Assembly: GCA_913054135.1 (NCBI GenBank)
Contig: CAJXJK010000016.1
Location: 1 to 64,000, forward strand
Length of the DNA stretch: 64,000 nucleotides
Direction: 5' to 3'
DNA from: an uncultured Flavobacteriales bacterium
GTDB taxonomy: Bacteria; Bacteroidota; Bacteroidia; Flavobacteriales_D; Crocinitomicaceae
The notes under the pieces were generated by a model. It did not search any database. It was not told where the DNA came from and worked only from the letters and a program-made list of their open reading frames with translations. Below, piece after piece: positions 11,690-22,460 of the stretch. Numbering within the stretch: position 1 is the stretch's first letter; each line of letters starts with the position of its first letter. The translations under genes were made by a program, and so were the position numbers.

Positions 11690-12919
11690 ATGAGTAAAGA
11701 AGAAAACATAAATTGTTCGTTCTGCGGAAGATCTAAAAATGACGCCGGAATCTTAATAGCCGGTTTAACAGGTCACATTTGTTCATCATGTATTGAGCAA
11801 GCGCATTCAATTGTAGACGAGCAAAAAAAGCATGACTCAGGTTCGGACGTTAGTCATGATTTTAAACTGATGACACCTCAACAAATCAAAGATGATTTGG
11901 ATGAGTATGTGATTGGTCAAGATGATGCTAAAAGAGTTCTTTCGGTTGCAGTTTACAATCACTACAAGAGATTAACTTATGCCGAAGGAAATGAAGATTT
12001 AGAAATTGATAAGTCAAACTTAATTTTAGTTGGTAGAACTGGAACAGGTAAAACTTTACTTGCCAGAACCATTGCTAAATCATTGAACGTTCCTTTTTGT
12101 ATTGCTGATGCCACAGTTTTAACTGAGGCTGGATATGTAGGTGAAGATGTTGAATCAATCTTATCTCGCCTACTCCAAGCTGCTGATTACAATGTTGAAG
12201 CTGCTGAAAAAGGAATCGTCTTTATTGATGAGATTGATAAGATTGCCAGAAAGTCTGATAATCCTTCTATTACCAGAGATGTTTCAGGTGAAGGAGTGCA
12301 GCAAGCTATGTTAAAATTGCTTGAAGGTACTGAGGTTAATGTTCCGCCACAAGGTGGTAGAAAACACCCTGAGCAAAAAATGATAAAGGTGAATACCAAA
12401 AACATTTTGTTTGTTGCTGGTGGAGCCTTTGACGGAATTGAGCAAATCATTGGAAGAAGAATCAACACCAATATGATTGGGTTCTCTTCAAAAGATGAAA
12501 AATTAGATACAGATCACTTATTGCAATATGTGACACCTACAGACATCAAAGATTTCGGATTGATTCCTGAATTGATAGGAAGAATGCCCGTGCTGACTTA
12601 TTTGAATCCTTTAGATGAAAAGGCTTTAAGAAGAATATTAACTGAGCCAAAAAACTCTTTAATCAAACAATATGTTCATCTCTTTTCATTAGATGATGTT
12701 GAGTTAAAGCTAGATGCTGACACTCTTGATTTCATTGTTGAGAAAGCTCTTGAGTATAAACTTGGAGCAAGAGGTTTAAGGTCAATTTGCGAAGCAATCT
12801 TAAATGATGCCATGTTCGAATTACCTTCTCAAAAAGACACTACTGAACTACGAATTACTTTAGAATATGCAAGGTCAAAATTTGCGGGATCAAAATTGGC
12901 CAAATTAAAAATTGCTTAA
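11690..12919 (+). CDS. clpX: ATP-dependent Clp protease ATP-binding subunit ClpX
   Basis: AAA+ unfoldase that feeds ClpP. 409 aa. The N-terminal zinc-binding domain has Cys9-x2-Cys12 and Cys31-x2-Cys34. Walker A is GRTGTGKT at 115-122, Walker B '[13 protein letters not shown]', with '[13 protein letters not shown]' and the pore loop '[10 protein letters not shown]' as in known ClpX. The sensor-2 arginine motif '[10 protein letters not shown]' is near the C-terminus. It is downstream of clpP in one operon, and a further gene starts 1 nt after its stop. Confidence 0.97.
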
Positions 12920-16385: not shown

Positions 16386-16419
16386 AAAAAAAAAGGCCGA
16401 TACTATAATAGTACCGGCC
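16386..16419 (-). terminator. Intrinsic terminator, minus strand
   Basis: GGCCGATACTA and TAGTACCGGCC form a long hairpin (16395-16419). On the minus strand it is followed by nine T. It ends the two-gene lipoprotein operon 17314-16471. Confidence 0.85.
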
Positions 16420-16470
16420 CATCAGTAAACCAAATAAAAAGGAAATTAGAGTTTTTCCATGGGTCCACTT

Positions 16471-16954: not shown

Positions 16955-17314
16955 TTATTGTAATCTTTCAAGTTGTATGTTCTCCTCAGTGGGCAACTCC
17001 AACTCCATTTCATTCTTCTTTAATTTGATGACATTGTATGTATCAACTGAACCATCTGTTTCTGTGATAATCAATTTCTTTTTGCCATCACCCCAGGCCC
17101 ATGTACCCTTAATTGAATTATTTTCAAGGTAATTTCCATCCTTAGAATATTCCCATACTTCACCTGCATAATCAGAGGTAACATTTGTACCGTCTTCTAA
17201 ATCTGTTGCACTACTAATTGTCCACTGATCGCGAGTTAAATTTGCTTTTTTACAACTTGACGTTGTCACTGCGGCTCCGGCAATGATCAACATCCCTAAT
17301 GAGAATCTTTTCAT
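16955..17314 (-). CDS. Lipocalin-like lipoprotein
   Basis: 119 aa; signal MKRFSLGMLIIAGAAVTTSSC. The mature part follows the short lipocalin-like pattern of Bacteroidota lipoproteins: 'RDQWTISSATDLEDGTNV', 'VWEYSKDGNYLEN', 'KGTWAWGDGKKKLIITETDG', 'NVIKLKKNEMELELP'. The same layout (W-x-I start, 'G.Y', 'GTW...D....I', 'I.KL.K.EM') is seen in the lipoprotein at 21825-22271. A specific ligand is not known. The gene has the motif TTCCAACC-N15-TCGGCT just upstream and so appears to be part of the local ECF regulon. Confidence 0.72.
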   Translation of the reverse strand: MKRFSLGMLIIAGAAVTTSSCKKANLTRDQWTISSATDLEDGTNVTSDYAGEVWEYSKDGNYLENNSIKGTWAWGDGKKKLIITETDGSVDTYNVIKLKKNEMELELPTEENIQLERLQ

Positions 17315-17335: not shown

Positions 17336-17364
17336 AGCCGAACTAAAAGATGGAAAGGTTGGAA
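17336..17364 (-). promoter_or_regulatory. Putative ECF sigma promoter P1 (TTCCAACC-N15-TCGGCT)
   Basis: On the minus strand, TTCCAACC (17364-17357) is followed after exactly 15 nt by TCGGCT (17341-17336), 21 nt upstream of the lipoprotein ATG at 17314. The layout is that of an ECF promoter with an AAC-containing -35 box and a CG-containing -10 box. Three more copies with the same spacing lie at 20027-20055, 20071-20099 and 22300-22328. Confidence 0.72.
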
Positions 17365-17382
17365 AATAAAGAATATATTTTC

Positions 17383-18771
17383 TTAGAATTTGTATCCAAA
17401 TCTAAAATACACGCCAGTTGTGTAGGTTTTAGATCGGTTCAAGAAAGAAGATTGATTTCCTTCTGGATTAAATAGATTGTTTAACCCTATACTAGAATGT
17501 AATCCCGAGCCAAGAATAAATTGATTAAACTCTTTATGAAATCCTAAATTAAGTTGGACACCATAATCAATCTTTTTAAATGGTTCACTTACCTCAATTT
17601 CTAATTCATCCACAAATTCTCTTTCATTTTTCAGAACGGAAGCAAATCCTCCAATTGATGCATTGATATAATTACCGCTACACTTTTCACCCAATCTGAA
17701 ACTTTTGCCATAAGACGCATTAAATTTAAAGTAATCAAGAACAACCAAATTGGTCACATTTAAAAACCCTAAATAGGTTTGAACAGATCGTTTCACACGA
17801 GAATTCACATACATCTCTGAATTAATGAAAGTATTGTTTTTCAAATACCTTTGACCAAACAATCCGTAATTAAATGATAATACAAAGTTGTTTTTTACCA
17901 ATGAAGTTTTTGAAAATCCTTCACGTGAAGTGGCGTCAGACAAAAAACTATTATCTAATGAACTCACTACTCCACCCACCCATTTCTTCGATTTTATAAA
18001 GCAAGCCTCTTCTTTCTTTTCAATCTTAATAAGCGGTGAAAGATCACTGTTGAATGACTGGTCCAATTTACTTATGACCGAGGAATCAATTCTCTCTATA
18101 TCTGTCAAAATTTCGCCATTTGATAAATTCGCTGCTGGATTCAACGTTTTGTCAATTCTAATCTCTCCATTTGATGTTTGCGAATGAGAGAATTGATTAT
18201 TTGAATTCTGAACAGATGCTATCCCATCATTTGGAATATGGTTTTGCACAACAGAATTAGTCGTATAAGTTTCAAGATTAGCTGTCGATCCGTCTGCGAT
18301 AACGTGAGTGGATTCATTCAAGTCAGAATTGTCATTTTCTTCTAACTCTTGTTCATGAGCAGTTTGATTAGCTGAGTTTGCAAATGCATGCAATTCTTCT
18401 TGGCCGCTAGATTGCTTAATTCCAGAATCGGCATTATAATTCGGTATCAACAAACCCGACAGAAGTATTAAAAGGGCAATTCCAGCCGCATTCCACCATA
18501 TGAAAGCAATTAGTTTTTTTCTTTTCAGTTTAAGCTGAATTCGTGACCACACTGTGTCAATGTCTAGCTCTTCCTGTATACCAACCCATCCACCAACAGG
18601 GAACTCTTCAGGAATGTCATTAAATGCGGTAACAATTTGTTGGTCAAGGCCACCGGCCTGATTTAATTTTTGCTCAATATTGTTCCAATTGCCAAAATCA
18701 AAATTGTCATTATCAGAGTCAAAACCATCTCTGATTAAATCATCTATATTTTTATATGAATCAGCTGCCAC
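17383..18771 (-). CDS. Putative anti-sigma factor with one transmembrane segment and a C-terminal beta-rich domain
   Basis: 462 aa from GTG 18771, overlapping the sigma factor's stop by 11 nt, so translation is coupled. Residues 1-80 are a cytosolic Asp/Asn/Trp-rich region; 'KLIAFIWWNAAGIALLILLSG' (about 86-109; written here without its last residues) is a single membrane span preceded by KLKRKK. A polar Ser/Asn-rich linker and a beta-rich C-terminal domain ending in 'TTGVYFRFGYKF' follow, which resembles an outer-membrane beta-barrel-type repeat. By position it should hold the ECF sigma factor at the membrane. A short N-terminal sigma-binding region fused to a large periplasmic barrel-like domain is a Bacteroidota arrangement. 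Sigma binding is inferred from context. Confidence 0.72.
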   Translation of the reverse strand: MAADSYKNIDDLIRDGFDSDNDNFDFGNWNNIEQKLNQAGGLDQQIVTAFNDIPEEFPVGGWVGIQEELDIDTVWSRIQLKLKRKKLIAFIWWNAAGIALLILLSGLLIPNYNADSGIKQSSGQEELHAFANSANQTAHEQELEENDNSDLNESTHVIADGSTANLETYTTNSVVQNHIPNDGIASVQNSNNQFSHSQTSNGEIRIDKTLNPAANLSNGEILTDIERIDSSVISKLDQSFNSDLSPLIKIEKKEEACFIKSKKWVGGVVSSLDNSFLSDATSREGFSKTSLVKNNFVLSFNYGLFGQRYLKNNTFINSEMYVNSRVKRSVQTYLGFLNVTNLVVLDYFKFNASYGKSFRLGEKCSGNYINASIGGFASVLKNEREFVDELEIEVSEPFKKIDYGVQLNLGFHKEFNQFILGSGLHSSIGLNNLFNPEGNQSSFLNRSKTYTTGVYFRFGYKF

Positions 18772-19321
18772 CTAAAGATGATTTAATTAAAGTTCTGGCC
18801 CTATTCAATTGAGATTTAGATGTGCCCACTGAAATTTCTAAATATTCTGCAATTTCTTTATGAGTTAAACCTTCAATTACATACAGTTTTAAAATCAAAC
18901 CAGCTTTGCCAGGCAAGTTGTTAACCACTTCTCTTATTTTATTGGATGAAGACAACTCTTCTTCAAATTCAAACTCCACAGCCTCAGTGTGAGATTCAGT
19001 ATCCAATTGTGAAATCACTTCTTCGTATCGACTCTTCTTTCTTAATGCATCAATAGTTTTGAAAATGATAATTCTGCGCACCCATCCTTCTAAAGAGCCT
19101 TCAAATCTGAAATTTTCTAATTTCCTGAAAACTTCAATGAAGCCCTCTTGTAAGAAATCCATAGCCTCATCATTGTCTTGAGAATAGGTTTTGCAAACAT
19201 GAAACATTTTTTTAGCATACTTTCTATATAGAGCTTCCTGATAAGTTCGATCGTCTTCTATGCATTTCTGTATTAGAATTTTCTCATCAATTAGGTCGAT
19301 ATTTGAAAGGATGTCACTCAC
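18761..19321 (-). CDS. ECF-family RNA polymerase sigma factor
   Basis: 186 aa from GTG 19321; the stop of the preceding lipoprotein and this start overlap as TAGTG. Region 2 shows 'YQEALYRKYAKKMFHVCKTY' and 'EAMDFLQEGFIEVFRKL', then 'FEGSLEGWVRRIIIFKTID'. Region 4 shows 'LPGKAGLILKLYVIEGLTHK' and 'EIAEYLEISVGTSKSQLNRA' (helix-turn-helix) near the C-terminus. It directs polymerase to alternative promoters. It is the second gene of the operon lipoprotein-sigma-anti-sigma, itself preceded by a promoter motif that recurs at three neighbouring genes, so autoregulation is likely. Confidence 0.93.
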   Translation of the reverse strand: MSDILSNIDLIDEKILIQKCIEDDRTYQEALYRKYAKKMFHVCKTYSQDNDEAMDFLQEGFIEVFRKLENFRFEGSLEGWVRRIIIFKTIDALRKKSRYEEVISQLDTESHTEAVEFEFEEELSSSNKIREVVNNLPGKAGLILKLYVIEGLTHKEIAEYLEISVGTSKSQLNRARTLIKSSLGGS

Positions 19322-20010
19322 TAATTACTAAAAGTTGATTCGGTTTGTTCATCTACCCTATCTGCCACATTATCGTAAATAGTTTCATTGTTCTCTTCAT
19401 TAATGAGGATTGTCATTGTTCCTTGAACGTTAGATAAATTAGCATTACTCCATGCATTGTTTGTAATAACATCAAACCAATAAATAGGGTCAAAAACAAT
19501 AAAATTCGTGGCAGGTGTATCTTTATCTAGCATTATAATTGGATCACCACTATCTGCTTCACCGCTAACAGCAAATGTCTCGCTTGACATGAATTGAAAA
19601 ATGATTGGGAAGGCTTGACTTGATTGATTGGTGTATGTACCACTTACTTCAATAGTTGGTTCATCATTCCCCTCGTGGGTATCAAACTCTATCTCTAAAG
19701 AAGTATAATTTCCTTGGGGAATCTCTTGCGATAAGTCACTGATTTCAAGTGTAGGACTAAAATTAATAACTTTTCCTCCTGGAAATTCAGACTCTAAATT
19801 TACCGGCCCTCCTTCTTGGCGAATACCTGAAACCTCGTAACTAGCAAGTCTGATATATCCTTGATCAAAAACCAAATGACCTTCATTGCTTGTGGCCCTA
19901 TTGATATCCATTTTGACCGAAACATCAGTAGGTTTTTTAAGCTGATTCTTTTTACAAGAATTCAATCCAATCAAAATGCTCAGTAATCCTATGTAATACA
20001 AGTTTTTCAT
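19321..20010 (-). CDS. Lipoprotein, DUF4382-like, first gene of the sigma operon
   Basis: 229 aa; signal MKNLYYIGLLSILIGLNSC, then KKN. Mature features: 'HLVFDQGYIRLASYEVSGIR', 'LEISDLSQEIPQGNYTSLEI', 'FPIIFQFMSSETFAVSG', and a C-terminal 'NNETIYDNVADRVDEQTEST'. The 'I..G.YTSLEIE' segment and overall pattern recall DUF4382-type lipoproteins, but I am not certain. Its stop overlaps the sigma factor start (TAGTG), so it is the leader gene of the ECF operon. It could be a sensor or an output protein of the envelope response. Confidence 0.7.
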   Translation of the reverse strand: MKNLYYIGLLSILIGLNSCKKNQLKKPTDVSVKMDINRATSNEGHLVFDQGYIRLASYEVSGIRQEGGPVNLESEFPGGKVINFSPTLEISDLSQEIPQGNYTSLEIEFDTHEGNDEPTIEVSGTYTNQSSQAFPIIFQFMSSETFAVSGEADSGDPIIMLDKDTPATNFIVFDPIYWFDVITNNAWSNANLSNVQGTMTILINEENNETIYDNVADRVDEQTESTFSN

Positions 20011-20026
20011 ACTTCTTTCAATTAAT

Positions 20027-20055
20027 AGTCGAGTCTAAGTTAAGGAGGGTTGGAA
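20027..20055 (-). promoter_or_regulatory. Putative ECF sigma promoter P2, autoregulatory
   Basis: On the minus strand TTCCAACC (20055-20048), then 15 nt, then TCGACT (20032-20027), 16 nt upstream of the lipoprotein-sigma-anti-sigma operon's first ATG at 20010. It is divergent to P3; the two -35 boxes form an inverted repeat (GGTTGGAAAA 20048-20057 and TTTTCCAACC 20069-20078). Confidence 0.76.
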
Positions 20056-20070
20056 AAAAAACAATGGATT

Positions 20071-20099
20071 TTCCAACCTGTCAATCAAATCTCTCGACT
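20071..20099 (+). promoter_or_regulatory. Putative ECF sigma promoter P3 for the DUF2490-like gene
   Basis: TTCCAACC (20071-20078), 15 nt, TCGACT (20094-20099). Only 8 nt separate the -10 box from the ATG at 20108, so the mRNA would be leaderless or nearly so. It is divergent to P2. Confidence 0.74.
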
Positions 20100-20107
20100 T
20101 TAGGGAA

Positions 20108-20788
20108 ATGATCTATCTGAAAAAATCTTTGCTAATTTGCTTTCTTTTTGTCCTAAGTTGGAATATCAATGCTCAAATCCCGCATGATGTTGAAGCTTGG
20201 GTAGGGTCCAATTTAAAGTTTAAATTAAATAAAAAGGTTAGTTTAAACATTAGCCCTGAAATCAGATTTGATAATGACATCTCTACTAGAAAATCAGTTT
20301 TTACTGATTTAGAGCTAAAACTAAAACTGTCAAAATACTGGGCCTTGAAATGGGGTTTCAGATTCGCTCAACGTCCTAATAACGGGATTAAACTTAGGGG
20401 TAATTTTGACATCCTCTTCAGTGTGAAGAAGAAGAAAAAAAAGCTCTCATTCAGAAATCGATTGAGAAGTCAATTCGGGTATGCCATTCAAACGGGAAAG
20501 AATGAAGTTTTTATCAGAGATCAGGTTTTATTTAAGTACAACCTTTCCAAATTAGTAGATCCTTACGCAGGAGGCGAGATTTTTTTTAAAACTAAAAGTC
20601 TGGAATTTAGACAGTTCAGGTTATTGGCTGGATTAGACTGGAAACTTACTAACTGGTGGGATGTAAGTACATTTTATATTTATGAAAGAGAAATTTTTAA
20701 TTCAAATCCCAGCGCTTCAAATATTATTGGATTCAGTTCAACTTTCAAATTGAAGAAGAAAAAGCAAAAGTCACATTCTAGTTTATAA
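20108..20788 (+). CDS. DUF2490-like outer-membrane protein
   Basis: 226 aa with signal peptide MIYLKKSLLICFLFVLSWNINAQ. The pattern 'DVEAWVGSNLKFKLNKKVSL', 'YWALKWGFRFAQRP', 'LSFRNRLRSQFGYA', 'FRQFRLLAGLDWKLTNWWDV', 'FYIYEREI' matches the DUF2490 family: antiparallel strands with 'R.R.R' in the middle. A small outer-membrane beta-barrel is likely; the ending is polar (KKKKQKSHSSL), so a C-terminal aromatic is not seen. It is transcribed from a putative ECF promoter shared, back to back, with the sigma operon, so it is likely an output of that sigma factor. Confidence 0.75.
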   Translation: MIYLKKSLLICFLFVLSWNINAQIPHDVEAWVGSNLKFKLNKKVSLNISPEIRFDNDISTRKSVFTDLELKLKLSKYWALKWGFRFAQRPNNGIKLRGNFDILFSVKKKKKKLSFRNRLRSQFGYAIQTGKNEVFIRDQVLFKYNLSKLVDPYAGGEIFFKTKSLEFRQFRLLAGLDWKLTNWWDVSTFYIYEREIFNSNPSASNIIGFSSTFKLKKKKQKSHSSL

Positions 20789-20817
20789 AAAGCCAGCTCA
20801 AGAACGGACTGGCTTTA
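20789..20817 (+). terminator. Weak terminator-like hairpin
   Basis: AAAGCCAG (20789-20796) pairs with CTGGCTTT (20809-20816) just after the DUF2490-like stop codon. The T-run is short, so termination strength is uncertain. Confidence 0.5.
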
Positions 20818-20895
20818 TAAGTTTATTTACCTGCGAAATTAGAGAATGACTTATTTAAATGTTCAAACATCTATCAGTTGTTTAAAAGACAAATA

Positions 20896-21771
20896 TCATT
20901 TTCTTGTCGGCTCAATATGGATTAGAACATTATAGATTTGAGGAAATTCTCTGATTAGATGATCCTTTAGATTATGTGAAATTGTGTGTCCTTCATGTAC
21001 TGGAATATCTCTTTTTACGATTACATGTAAGTCAATGATGTATTTCATTCCTATTTTACGAATGAAGCACTTCTCTGTATCAACAACACCTTTAACCTCA
21101 TTGGAACTTTCTCTTATTTTTTTTTCAAAATCGTGATAAGTATGCTCATCCATTATTTCACCTAGAGCAGGTCTAAATATTTTGTATGCGTTGAAAACAA
21201 TTAAGGATGAAGAAGCCAATGCTGCAATGTCATCTGCGATTTCAAAACCTTCTCCAAAAATTAAAGCAATACTTATACCGACAGCAGCAAAAGCAGATGT
21301 AATAGCGTCAGACCTATGATGCCATGCTTCAGCTTTTAGGGCAGTGCTTTCGGTTTCTTGACTTTTCTTAATGGTATATCTAAATAGAACTTCCTTGATC
21401 AATATGATCGCAAATAAGACTATCAGAGTATATTTCTTTGGTAAGGGATGAGGTGTTTGAATGTTCTCTAAAGCTTGCCACGAAATCGTAACAGCCGCAG
21501 TAATTAAGAATGCAACAACCACAAAAGTGATAAGGGCTTCTGCTCTTCCGTGACCATACGGATGGTTTTCATCTGCCGGTTTGGCTGCGTACTTTATGCC
21601 AAACAAAACTAATATTGAAGCAAAGATATCAGTAGTAGATTCAATGGCATCTGCAATAAGTGCATATGAATGACCGAAGAATCCGGTTAGGAATTTCACA
21701 ACAGCCAAAATGATACTACCGAAAATTCCTAAGATTACTGGCTTGGTGGTATTTTTAGTTGTATTCTCCAA
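20896..21771 (-). CDS. Cation diffusion facilitator family transporter
   Basis: 291 aa, beginning at TTG 21771 (no early Met exists before the first span). Six membrane spans and a C-terminal cytosolic domain. Metal-site motifs: 'HSYALIADAIESTTDIFASI' (TM2), 'HPYGHGRAEALITFVV' after it, and 'KAEAWHHRSDAI' (TM5), as in CDF exporters of Zn/Fe/Co/Ni. The cytosolic domain has the usual 'DLHVIVKRDIPVHEGHTISH' pattern. It uses proton antiport to export divalent cations. It is separated from the lipocalin-like gene upstream by a terminator. Confidence 0.93.
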   Translation of the reverse strand: MENTTKNTTKPVILGIFGSIILAVVKFLTGFFGHSYALIADAIESTTDIFASILVLFGIKYAAKPADENHPYGHGRAEALITFVVVAFLITAAVTISWQALENIQTPHPLPKKYTLIVLFAIILIKEVLFRYTIKKSQETESTALKAEAWHHRSDAITSAFAAVGISIALIFGEGFEIADDIAALASSSLIVFNAYKIFRPALGEIMDEHTYHDFEKKIRESSNEVKGVVDTEKCFIRKIGMKYIIDLHVIVKRDIPVHEGHTISHNLKDHLIREFPQIYNVLIHIEPTRK

Positions 21772-21773
21772 AA

Positions 21774-21803
21774 CAAAAAAAAGGGATCGCAGAACGATCC
21801 CTC
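21774..21803 (-). terminator. Intrinsic terminator, minus strand
   Basis: GGGATCG and CGATCCC (21783-21801) form a hairpin followed on the minus strand by T8. It ends the lipocalin-like lipoprotein gene and overlaps the TTG start region of the CDF gene. Confidence 0.82.
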
Positions 21804-21824
21804 AAATTTATTACCTTATTTCTA

Positions 21825-22271
21825 TTATTTAGGTATCATATGAAATTCATGCAGGTTTCCTCCGTTTTCGAATGAATACCACATTTCATCTTTATCTAAT
21901 TTGATAATATCATAATCAGAGGTTGAAACGGTTGAAGTTTGTTCAGTTAACTCATAACTACCGGTACCCGAAATGTTGATTCTGTCTTTGTCATCAACTA
22001 GAGACCAAGTACCTGTTTCGGATTTGAGATCTCCACTTTCATCATTGAATGTTCTAGTGTAGGTACCTCCATCACTAAATGTTTCTTCATAATTAGTGAT
22101 TAATAATTGGCTAGTGGCATCAGTACCGTCAAAGAAATACTTATCGATTTTCCATGTGTTTTGAATGTTCTTTTCAGCTTTGGCTTTTGATCCTCCATTG
22201 TCATATTTCTTGCATGAAATTGCTAGAACTCCTATAAGAGCGACTAAGGTAAATTTGATTGTAGTTTTCAT
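21825..22271 (-). CDS. Lipocalin-like lipoprotein, second copy type
   Basis: 148 aa; signal MKTTIKFTLVALIGVLAISC followed by KKYDNGGSK. The lipocalin-like pattern is clear: 'NTWKIDKYFFDGTDAT', 'TFSDGGTYTRTF', 'ETGTWSLVDDKDRINISG', 'YDIIKLDKDEMWYSF'. It has the same architecture as the 16955-17314 protein but little exact identity, so it is a paralogous family member rather than a recent copy. It is preceded by the same TTCCAACC-N15-TCGACT motif (22300-22328), linking both to the ECF regulon. Confidence 0.75.
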   Translation of the reverse strand: MKTTIKFTLVALIGVLAISCKKYDNGGSKAKAEKNIQNTWKIDKYFFDGTDATSQLLITNYEETFSDGGTYTRTFNDESGDLKSETGTWSLVDDKDRINISGTGSYELTEQTSTVSTSDYDIIKLDKDEMWYSFENGGNLHEFHMIPK

Positions 22272-22299
22272 AAAATTATTTTTTTAGTTATCATCTAAA

Positions 22300-22328
22300 A
22301 GTCGAATACAAATTTGGTAAGGTTGGAA
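22300..22328 (-). promoter_or_regulatory. Putative ECF sigma promoter P4
   Basis: On the minus strand TTCCAACC (22328-22321), 15 nt, TCGACT (22305-22300), 28 nt upstream of the ATG at 22271. Sequence and spacing match P1-P3. Confidence 0.72.
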
Positions 22329-22460
22329 TAGTATAAACTGATTTTGATCAGTTCGAGTACTGACAAAAATCAGTTTATAGGGGTGATACTGACTAAAGAG
22401 CGCCCATTGACGGAGATATGTCATGAATTGAATGATAAAAACAGCCTAACTTCGCAGATT

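Follow-up and report, generated by a model that had tools for sequence, protein, structure and literature searches.

A local motif of probable ECF-type promoters at a predicted Dma-type sigma/anti-sigma locus of an uncultured Flavobacteriales bacterium, and its covariation with a residue of the sigma factor

In the first 64,000 nucleotides (nt) of contig CAJXJK010000016.1 of an uncultured Flavobacteriales bacterium (assembly GCA_913054135.1; this whole stretch is called the window here), the two-box motif TTCCAACC-N15-TCGRCT occurs four times within 5 kb, around an operon that encodes a sigma factor of the extracytoplasmic function (ECF) type. From sequence comparison, the four copies are very probably promoters of this sigma factor, which would read the CGRCT of their -10 box. 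Across related loci, the third base of this box changes together with a single residue in region 2 of the sigma factor. We lean towards interpreting this covariation as a natural recoding of an ECF promoter: in one flavobacterial clade, the region-2 residue responsible for melting the DNA and recognizing the first unpaired base of the -10 box would have changed from Asn to Phe or Tyr and a small regulon would have followed from T to purine, insulating it from a sister system of the Dma type (dual membrane-spanning anti-sigma) in the same cell.

Results

Four exact sites in one genome

All four copies match without mismatch, at the positions and on the strands where the first-pass annotation had seen them (Table 1), and 100 dinucleotide-shuffled versions of the window yielded no match. 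The spacing between the boxes is identical in all four, while the 15-nt spacers themselves all differ, leaving the two boxes alone as the common element. TCGRCT and the following ATG are 21, 16, 8 and 28 nt apart, in the order of Table 1, which bears out the range of 8 to 28 nt given at first pass. The whole genome (4,051,874 bases, about 4.05 Mb) contains these four exact matches only, where 0.03 would be expected under a first-order model of the window composition, and a reversed-pattern control found 0; copies at random places away from gene starts, which had been named in advance as the pattern that would speak against a regulon, do not occur in this genome. A sharp gap separates the exact sites from the remainder, with one match at one mismatch and 31 at two. 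Of these 32 weaker matches 26 were examined, and 24 fall inside stop-free frames of at least 129 codons. An extension of the regulon to the whole genome was rejected on these grounds, the one-mismatch match (C15:75449) itself sitting in a 424-codon stop-free frame. A scan of the region for sigma-70-type promoters was uninformative (31 found, 34.6 expected).

The motif follows the sigma factor across genomes

Among 99 related genomes, 11 exact sites are found in G000 (four), G002 (three), G001 (two) and G043 (two), which are the genomes with a sigma factor 68-99% identical to that of the window, and all 11 lie at the sigma locus. Four other genomes have one exact match each, and the reversed control has 0. 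G003, whose sigma relative is only 52% identical, has no exact site. In a survey of 399 genomes of the order, in which the best eight sigma candidates per genome were scored, six genomes have a sigma factor with 60% identity or more, and in each of them the motif is found at the sigma locus; a further 19 have one match each, which in 17 cases falls within a stop-free frame of at least 162 codons, and the reversed control gave matches in 12 of the 399. The motif also stands before the sigma operon in other species. A search of this and related genomes, as proposed at first pass, bears out the association with the sigma factor in relatives; the exact motif is confined to four sites within 5 kb and does not define a genome-wide set.

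The wider sigma family shows the same arrangement in a more relaxed form. A scan of named genomes returned 80 sigma loci; in the best 34 of them (L124-L157), an open reading frame (ORF) ends at the sigma start in 32, and an ORF of at least 350 amino acids (aa) lies directly 3' of the sigma gene in 28, of which 20 were aligned with the window anti-sigma factor. Between -3.5 and +4.5 kb of the sigma genes, these 34 loci contain 54 occurrences of TTCCAACC, 36 of them with C[AG][TAG]CT at +15/16, and an ATG-started frame follows within 90 nt after 31 of these 36 two-box sites. In 19 more distant ECF loci, TTCCAACC occurs four times, never with C[AG][TAG]CT at +15/16. Over 200 permutations of the -35 box, a mean of 0.26 sites with a -10 box was obtained; two permutations reached 19 and 12, these being shifted copies of the same box (TCCAACCT and CCAACCTT), and all others gave at most two. 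The degenerate signature T.CAAC[CT]-N15/16-C..C[TA] is present at -1000 to -600 of the sigma gene in 33 of 38 family loci, as against 1 of 19 other ECF loci; the 38 include the window and a paralogue in the same genome, and exclude L139, whose upstream sequence is short (site at -756). The equivalent upstream site in 33 of the 38 argues for the autoregulation that the first-pass annotation had suggested.

The third -10 base covaries with a region-2 residue

The sigma factor of the window carries W80, I84 and F87 in region 2 and the helix GTSKSQLNRAR in region 4. To relate residue and base, we took the residue seven positions after the region-2 tryptophan (W+7; F87 in the window) and read the third -10 base from C..C[TA] at +15/16 of each TTCCAACC, with no base assumed. 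Where W+7 is Asn or His, the third base is T in 37 of 37 readable sites; where it is Phe or Tyr, it is A in 11, G in six and T in one (purine in 17 of 18 sites, from seven loci). This count covers the readable 55 of 68 occurrences of TTCCAACC and the readable 31 of 39 sigma loci; the other eight loci are without a readable TTCCAACC site, and several of them have TTACAACC or TTCCAACT. For the upstream promoter only, the base is A in 7/7 loci with Phe or Tyr and T in 26/26 with Asn or His. W+7 could be read in 54 of another 69 ECF loci and not in the remaining 15; it is Asn in 52 of the 54, His in two, and in none Phe or Tyr. The Phe/Tyr sequences form one clade (support 100/99) nested among Asn sequences, so the switch has a single origin.

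Position W+7 aligns gap-free with an Asn of the solved ECF factors among the alignments listed. In the open complex of Mycobacterium tuberculosis sigma-H, this residue (N88, that is, W81+7) hydrogen-bonds a T of the -10 element and acts as a wedge in DNA opening, and a role of this position in promoter specificity is put forward as a possibility in that study (PMC6411747). Aligning CG-T-C with the G-T-T of sigma-H, the T contacted by N88 would correspond to the base that is changed here.

Orthologous targets carry the -10 form that fits their own sigma factor. Lipocalin-like lipoprotein B has the CGACT form in the window and its orthologue in G039, 60% identical, the CATCT form, and the same holds for the DUF2490 orthologues, which are 33% identical; orthologues of a small lipoprotein, 64% identical, have CGACT in G129 and CATCT in G039. 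A comparable shift is seen at the -35 box: its last base is T in all three loci whose region-4 helix (GTSKSQFKRAR) contains Lys, which group as one other clade in the tree, and C in 30 of 30 loci with Asn, His or Ser.

Within the Phe/Tyr clade, the third -10 base of the nine sites located downstream of the anti-sigma gene is G in six cases, A in two and T in one, as against A in all seven upstream promoters, perhaps a conserved difference in strength.

A paralogous system in the same genome

Contig C9 of the same genome holds a second set of lipoprotein, sigma and Dma-like genes, with a sigma factor 49% identical to that of the window by alignment (51% in the genome search). This paralogue keeps the Asn; its operon is preceded by TTACAACC-N16-CATCT, and a second site has TTCCAACC. 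As the -35 boxes are nearly identical and the -10 box is CATCT, the two systems would be separated chiefly via the -10 box. Such changes would then be what insulates the two sigma systems from each other.

A predicted trans-envelope anti-sigma factor

The sigma gene overlaps the gene of a protein that the first-pass annotation had recognized as an anti-sigma factor; structure prediction refines this assignment to a predicted trans-envelope protein with Dma architecture. The Dma family is described as having four parts, an N-terminal sigma-binding part, one membrane helix, a long disordered tether and a C-terminal barrel (PMC13088901). Dma genes stand beside that of a cognate ECF21 sigma factor, whose activity the Dma protein controls; at this locus, the neighbour is an ECF sigma gene. 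Our AlphaFold model, built on a 21-row alignment, has helices at 9-107 including one membrane helix, an unstructured segment at 108-263 and an eight-stranded barrel at 264-461. Helices 9-68, by position the putative sigma-binding part, are predicted with low confidence. The membrane helix (71-107) has a mean predicted local distance difference test (pLDDT) score of 59-81 and one hydrophobic stretch, whose position is shared by all 21 rows of the alignment as judged by eye. Residues 111-256 fall below pLDDT 50 and are read as a disordered tether, and the eight long strands of the barrel mostly exceed pLDDT 90. In Foldseek, the barrel matches OprG, OmpW and OmpA at E-values of 8e-7 to 4e-6, with TM-scores by target of 0.3-0.5; no Dma-named entry is among the 50 rows listed.

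Discussion

What can be discerned from these comparisons about the working of the locus? In the mechanism that we propose, region 4 of the sigma factor, with its helix GTSKSQLNRAR, would bind TTCCAACC, and region 2 would melt the DNA and read CGRCT, with Phe87 accommodating a purine where Asn-bearing ECF factors read T. With its barrel in the outer membrane, the Dma-type anti-sigma factor would keep the sigma factor at the inner membrane and would free it when the outer membrane, or barrel assembly, is disturbed. Once freed, it would transcribe its own operon and three envelope transcripts, those of the DUF2490 gene and the lipocalin-like genes, and the output of the sigma operon would include more inhibitor, closing the loop. 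From the predicted location of these products we infer an envelope response. If sigma-H numbering holds, the four 5' leaders would be about 14, 9, 1 and 21 nt long; as the promoter of the DUF2490 gene ends 8 nt from the ATG, a nearly leaderless mRNA is predicted there. In Flavobacterium psychrophilum, the median 5' leader is 24 nt and 5.5% of the examined mRNAs are leaderless (PMC9723704).

The pairing of sigma factor and motif, put forward at first pass as a conjecture, gains support from three sides, in that the motif tracks the sigma gene, precedes its operon in other species and changes its -10 base with the residue expected to contact it. Two alternatives grant that the sites are promoters. 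The purine could be neutral drift, unread by residue 87; the single origin of the switch, the exceptional locus L127 and the use of both A and G would fit such drift, but the split between T (37/37) and purine (17/18) falls on the very base that is contacted by this residue in sigma-H, and the 54 additional ECF loci that were parsed, with Asn or His throughout, offer no Phe or Tyr. We regard drift as rather unlikely. Alternatively, the motif could be read by another ECF factor of the genome, the neighbouring sigma gene being merely a target; the genome has seven sigma matches at E <= 1e-20, the window sigma included, and ECF regulons can overlap (PMC9723704). However, the motif tracks the window sigma specifically, the genome with a 52% identical relative (G003) is without an exact site, and the paralogue's own operon carries CATCT, which leaves this explanation quite improbable.

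A different kind of alternative holds that the motif is the operator of another transcription factor. It could draw on the two divergent copies at 20027-20099, which form an inverted arrangement around GGTTGGAA...TTCCAACC, and on a winged-helix-looking protein of 90-93 aa that is encoded 3' of the anti-sigma gene in G001 and G002. Yet the remaining two copies stand alone, each pointing at its gene and with the same spacing as the divergent ones, and the window has lipoprotein A and no such small protein after its anti-sigma gene; moreover, the motif accompanies the sigma gene from genome to genome, and its -10 base varies with sigma region 2 and its last -35 base with region 4. An operator is very improbable on this evidence. 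That the copies are a chance repetition or a mobile repeat element, for which their crowding into 5 kb might be adduced, is negligibly probable, given that the copies share only the two boxes, each with a spacer of its own, and that sites stand at equivalent positions in other species.

Several observations weigh against recognition of these promoters, and a recoded -10 box, by the neighbouring sigma factor. The association between residue and base rests on one origin, and L127, with CTTCT, breaks the purine rule in one of 18 sites. Thirteen of the 68 TTCCAACC occurrences are without C..C[TA] at +15/16 and went uncounted, among them one at L089, a locus with an Asn sigma, that has CGACA at +14. 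The upstream site is missing from five of the 38 family loci (L128, L130, L138, L147 and L153). Two stray exact matches, in G036 and G322, resemble each other and stand 26 nt upstream of an ATG, yet inside a 347-codon frame. The CATCT form loses much of this specificity at the scale of whole genomes, with matches in 36 of 99, a minority of them examined; claims on CATCT are thus based on the sites at sigma loci. Finally, the N-terminal part of the anti-sigma factor is modelled at low confidence, and its binding of the sigma factor is a prediction.

Circuits of the sigma-E/RseA type share with the system described here a membrane-bound anti-sigma factor, autoregulation, envelope targets and a two-box promoter with AAC in the -35 box. 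RseA is not known to have an outer-membrane barrel, however, and its regulon is genome-wide, whereas the window system comprises four promoters in 5 kb. Closer in architecture are Dma1-Das1 and Dma2-Das2 of Bacteroides thetaiotaomicron, where an ECF sigma gene likewise lies beside that of an anti-sigma factor, there with the four parts named above (PMC13088901). Genes of the dma2 operon and next to it show some of the strongest induction once dma2 is deleted (PMC13088901), which is what one would expect of a regulon that is local and autoregulated. In contrast to Dma/Das as described there, the operon here starts with a different kind of lipoprotein, and the predicted targets are DUF2490 and lipocalin-like genes rather than polysaccharide utilization loci or nigD1. 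A promoter motif is defined here, while the word motif does not appear in the main text of that paper, and none for the Dma family was found in the open-licence literature searched.

Among flavobacterial ECF-type promoters, the SM6 class of F. psychrophilum, defined from measured transcription starts and with CGT in the -10 region, resembles the present motif in having an ECF/anti-sigma operon among its targets (PMC9723704). The base after CG is T in SM6 as reported, but A or G in the clade of the window; as the window -10 boxes have CGA or CGG, we do not file them in this CGT-type class, whereas family loci with Asn or His have CGT or CAT. The ECF specificity code, in which position-specific residue-base pairs set promoter choice (PMC11588781, PMC8103513), embodies the same principle as the natural change from Asn to Phe or Tyr, matched by a purine, that we find from sequence. 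We did not find the motif in the open-licence literature searched on Dma, ECF21, Bacteroidetes and flavobacterial ECF promoters, barrel anti-sigma factors and specificity rewiring. Systems of this kind have been described before; what looks new is the recoded -10 box, together with the sigma residue that matches it, and the promoter signature of Dma-type loci. The Dma family is a recent discovery; the signature T.CAAC[CT]-N15/16-C..C[TA] at sigma loci offers a way to find Dma-type targets in Bacteroidota from sequence, and the locus provides a testable example from nature of a sigma factor and its promoters evolving together, in which a single residue is set against a single base and the sister system serves as a control within the same cell.

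Features of the locus and further observations

The genes of the leading lipoprotein, the sigma factor and the anti-sigma factor follow each other on the minus strand with overlapping ends, and are followed by the first of the four sites, lipocalin-like lipoprotein A and a small lipoprotein that is probably co-transcribed with it (Table 1). Sites 3' of the anti-sigma gene are also present in G001, G002, G043, L126 and G129. Lipoprotein A is 72% identical to the gene behind the equivalent site in G001, and the small lipoprotein 30% identical to the gene at the same place there.

The gene assignments of the first-pass annotation are upheld by family searches. The DUF2490 (PF10677) gene scores 68.8 bits (E 6e-19) against a Pfam gathering cut-off of 29.8; the lipocalin-like pair scores 17.8 and 19.4 bits against Lipocalin_4 (PF13648), below the cut-off of 22.4, and is thus named lipocalin-like only. 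The nearest named relatives of the sigma factor are from Crocinitomicaceae and other Flavobacteriales. The leading lipoprotein and the anti-sigma factor match no Pfam or NCBIfam family above cut-off. For the leading lipoprotein, Foldseek found no match at E 0.001, and structure comparison gave MbnP as best (Z 8.5), followed by Bacteroides fimbrillin-type adhesins (Z 7-8); as these scores are middling, we claim no family. Proteins of this lipoprotein family, for which there is no Pfam model above cut-off, head the sigma operon in many family loci.

Table 1. Genes, predicted promoters and terminator-like hairpins of the sigma locus in the window
Feature	Position	Strand	Remarks
Predicted ECF promoter before lipocalin-like gene A	17336..17364	-	-35 TTCCAACC 17357-17364, -10 TCGGCT 17336-17341
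Predicted autoregulatory ECF promoter of the lipoprotein-sigma-anti-sigma operon	20027..20055	-	-35 20048-20055, -10 TCGACT 20027-20032
Predicted ECF promoter of the DUF2490 gene	20071..20099	+	-35 20071-20078, -10 TCGACT 20094-20099
Predicted ECF promoter of lipocalin-like gene B	22300..22328	-	-35 22321-22328, -10 TCGACT 22300-22305
Leading lipoprotein, encoded first in the sigma operon, 229 aa	19321..20010	-	beta-rich fold predicted with high confidence, mean pLDDT 93.4
ECF sigma factor, 186 aa, GTG start	18761..19321	-	PF04542 + PF08281
Predicted dual-membrane-spanning anti-sigma factor, 462 aa	17383..18771	-	structure prediction
Lipocalin-like lipoprotein A, 119 aa, predicted target	16955..17314	-	
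Small lipoprotein, 150 aa	16471..16923	-	
Terminator-like hairpin, would close the 17364 transcript	16394..16420	-	consensus match only
DUF2490 protein, 226 aa, predicted target, divergent from the sigma operon	20108..20788	+	
Lipocalin-like lipoprotein B, 148 aa, predicted target	21825..22271	-	
Terminator-like hairpin 3' of lipoprotein B, ahead of the CDF cation transporter gene (20896-21771)	21781..21803	-	consensus match only

Directly upstream of the promoter of lipocalin-like gene B, the window contains an inverted repeat (22332-22379) with 21-nt arms, 90% complementary, and a 6-nt loop. At the gathering threshold, Rfam finds two tRNAs in the window. The 90-93 aa winged-helix-looking protein of G002 (L081:8718-8999) and G001 (L082:9297-9569) stands in both genomes behind its own copy of the motif; the G001 protein has no Pfam match. 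In the Aureispira relatives L134 and L137, TTCCAACC-N16-CGTCT occurs inside the anti-sigma gene itself (+1355 and +1334 from the sigma start, respectively).

On contig C9, a CATCT-type promoter faces the 3' end of the paralogous anti-sigma gene (L088:6270-6515, plus strand, about 12270-12514 of the contig), with counterparts at L089:6030-6270 and L085:1655-1850. The roughly 200 nt that follow end in a terminator, show no shared reading frame and are in parts conserved in place across three genomes of the genus; Rfam, at its gathering threshold, has no match in the three paralogue loci searched. The C9 stretch folds better than shuffled sequences (z -2.8) and is a candidate for a sigma-dependent small RNA. 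In a search of 59 genomes, its copy in G001 is clear (E 2e-11), while that in G003, at E 0.002 no better than chance, is assigned by position. On contig C8 of the same genome (L021, about 1439-1467), TTCCAACC-N16-CGTTT lies 118 nt before another ECF sigma gene (helix GTSKWHLSNAR); with a terminator-like hairpin between the two, this site possibly produces a short transcript of its own.

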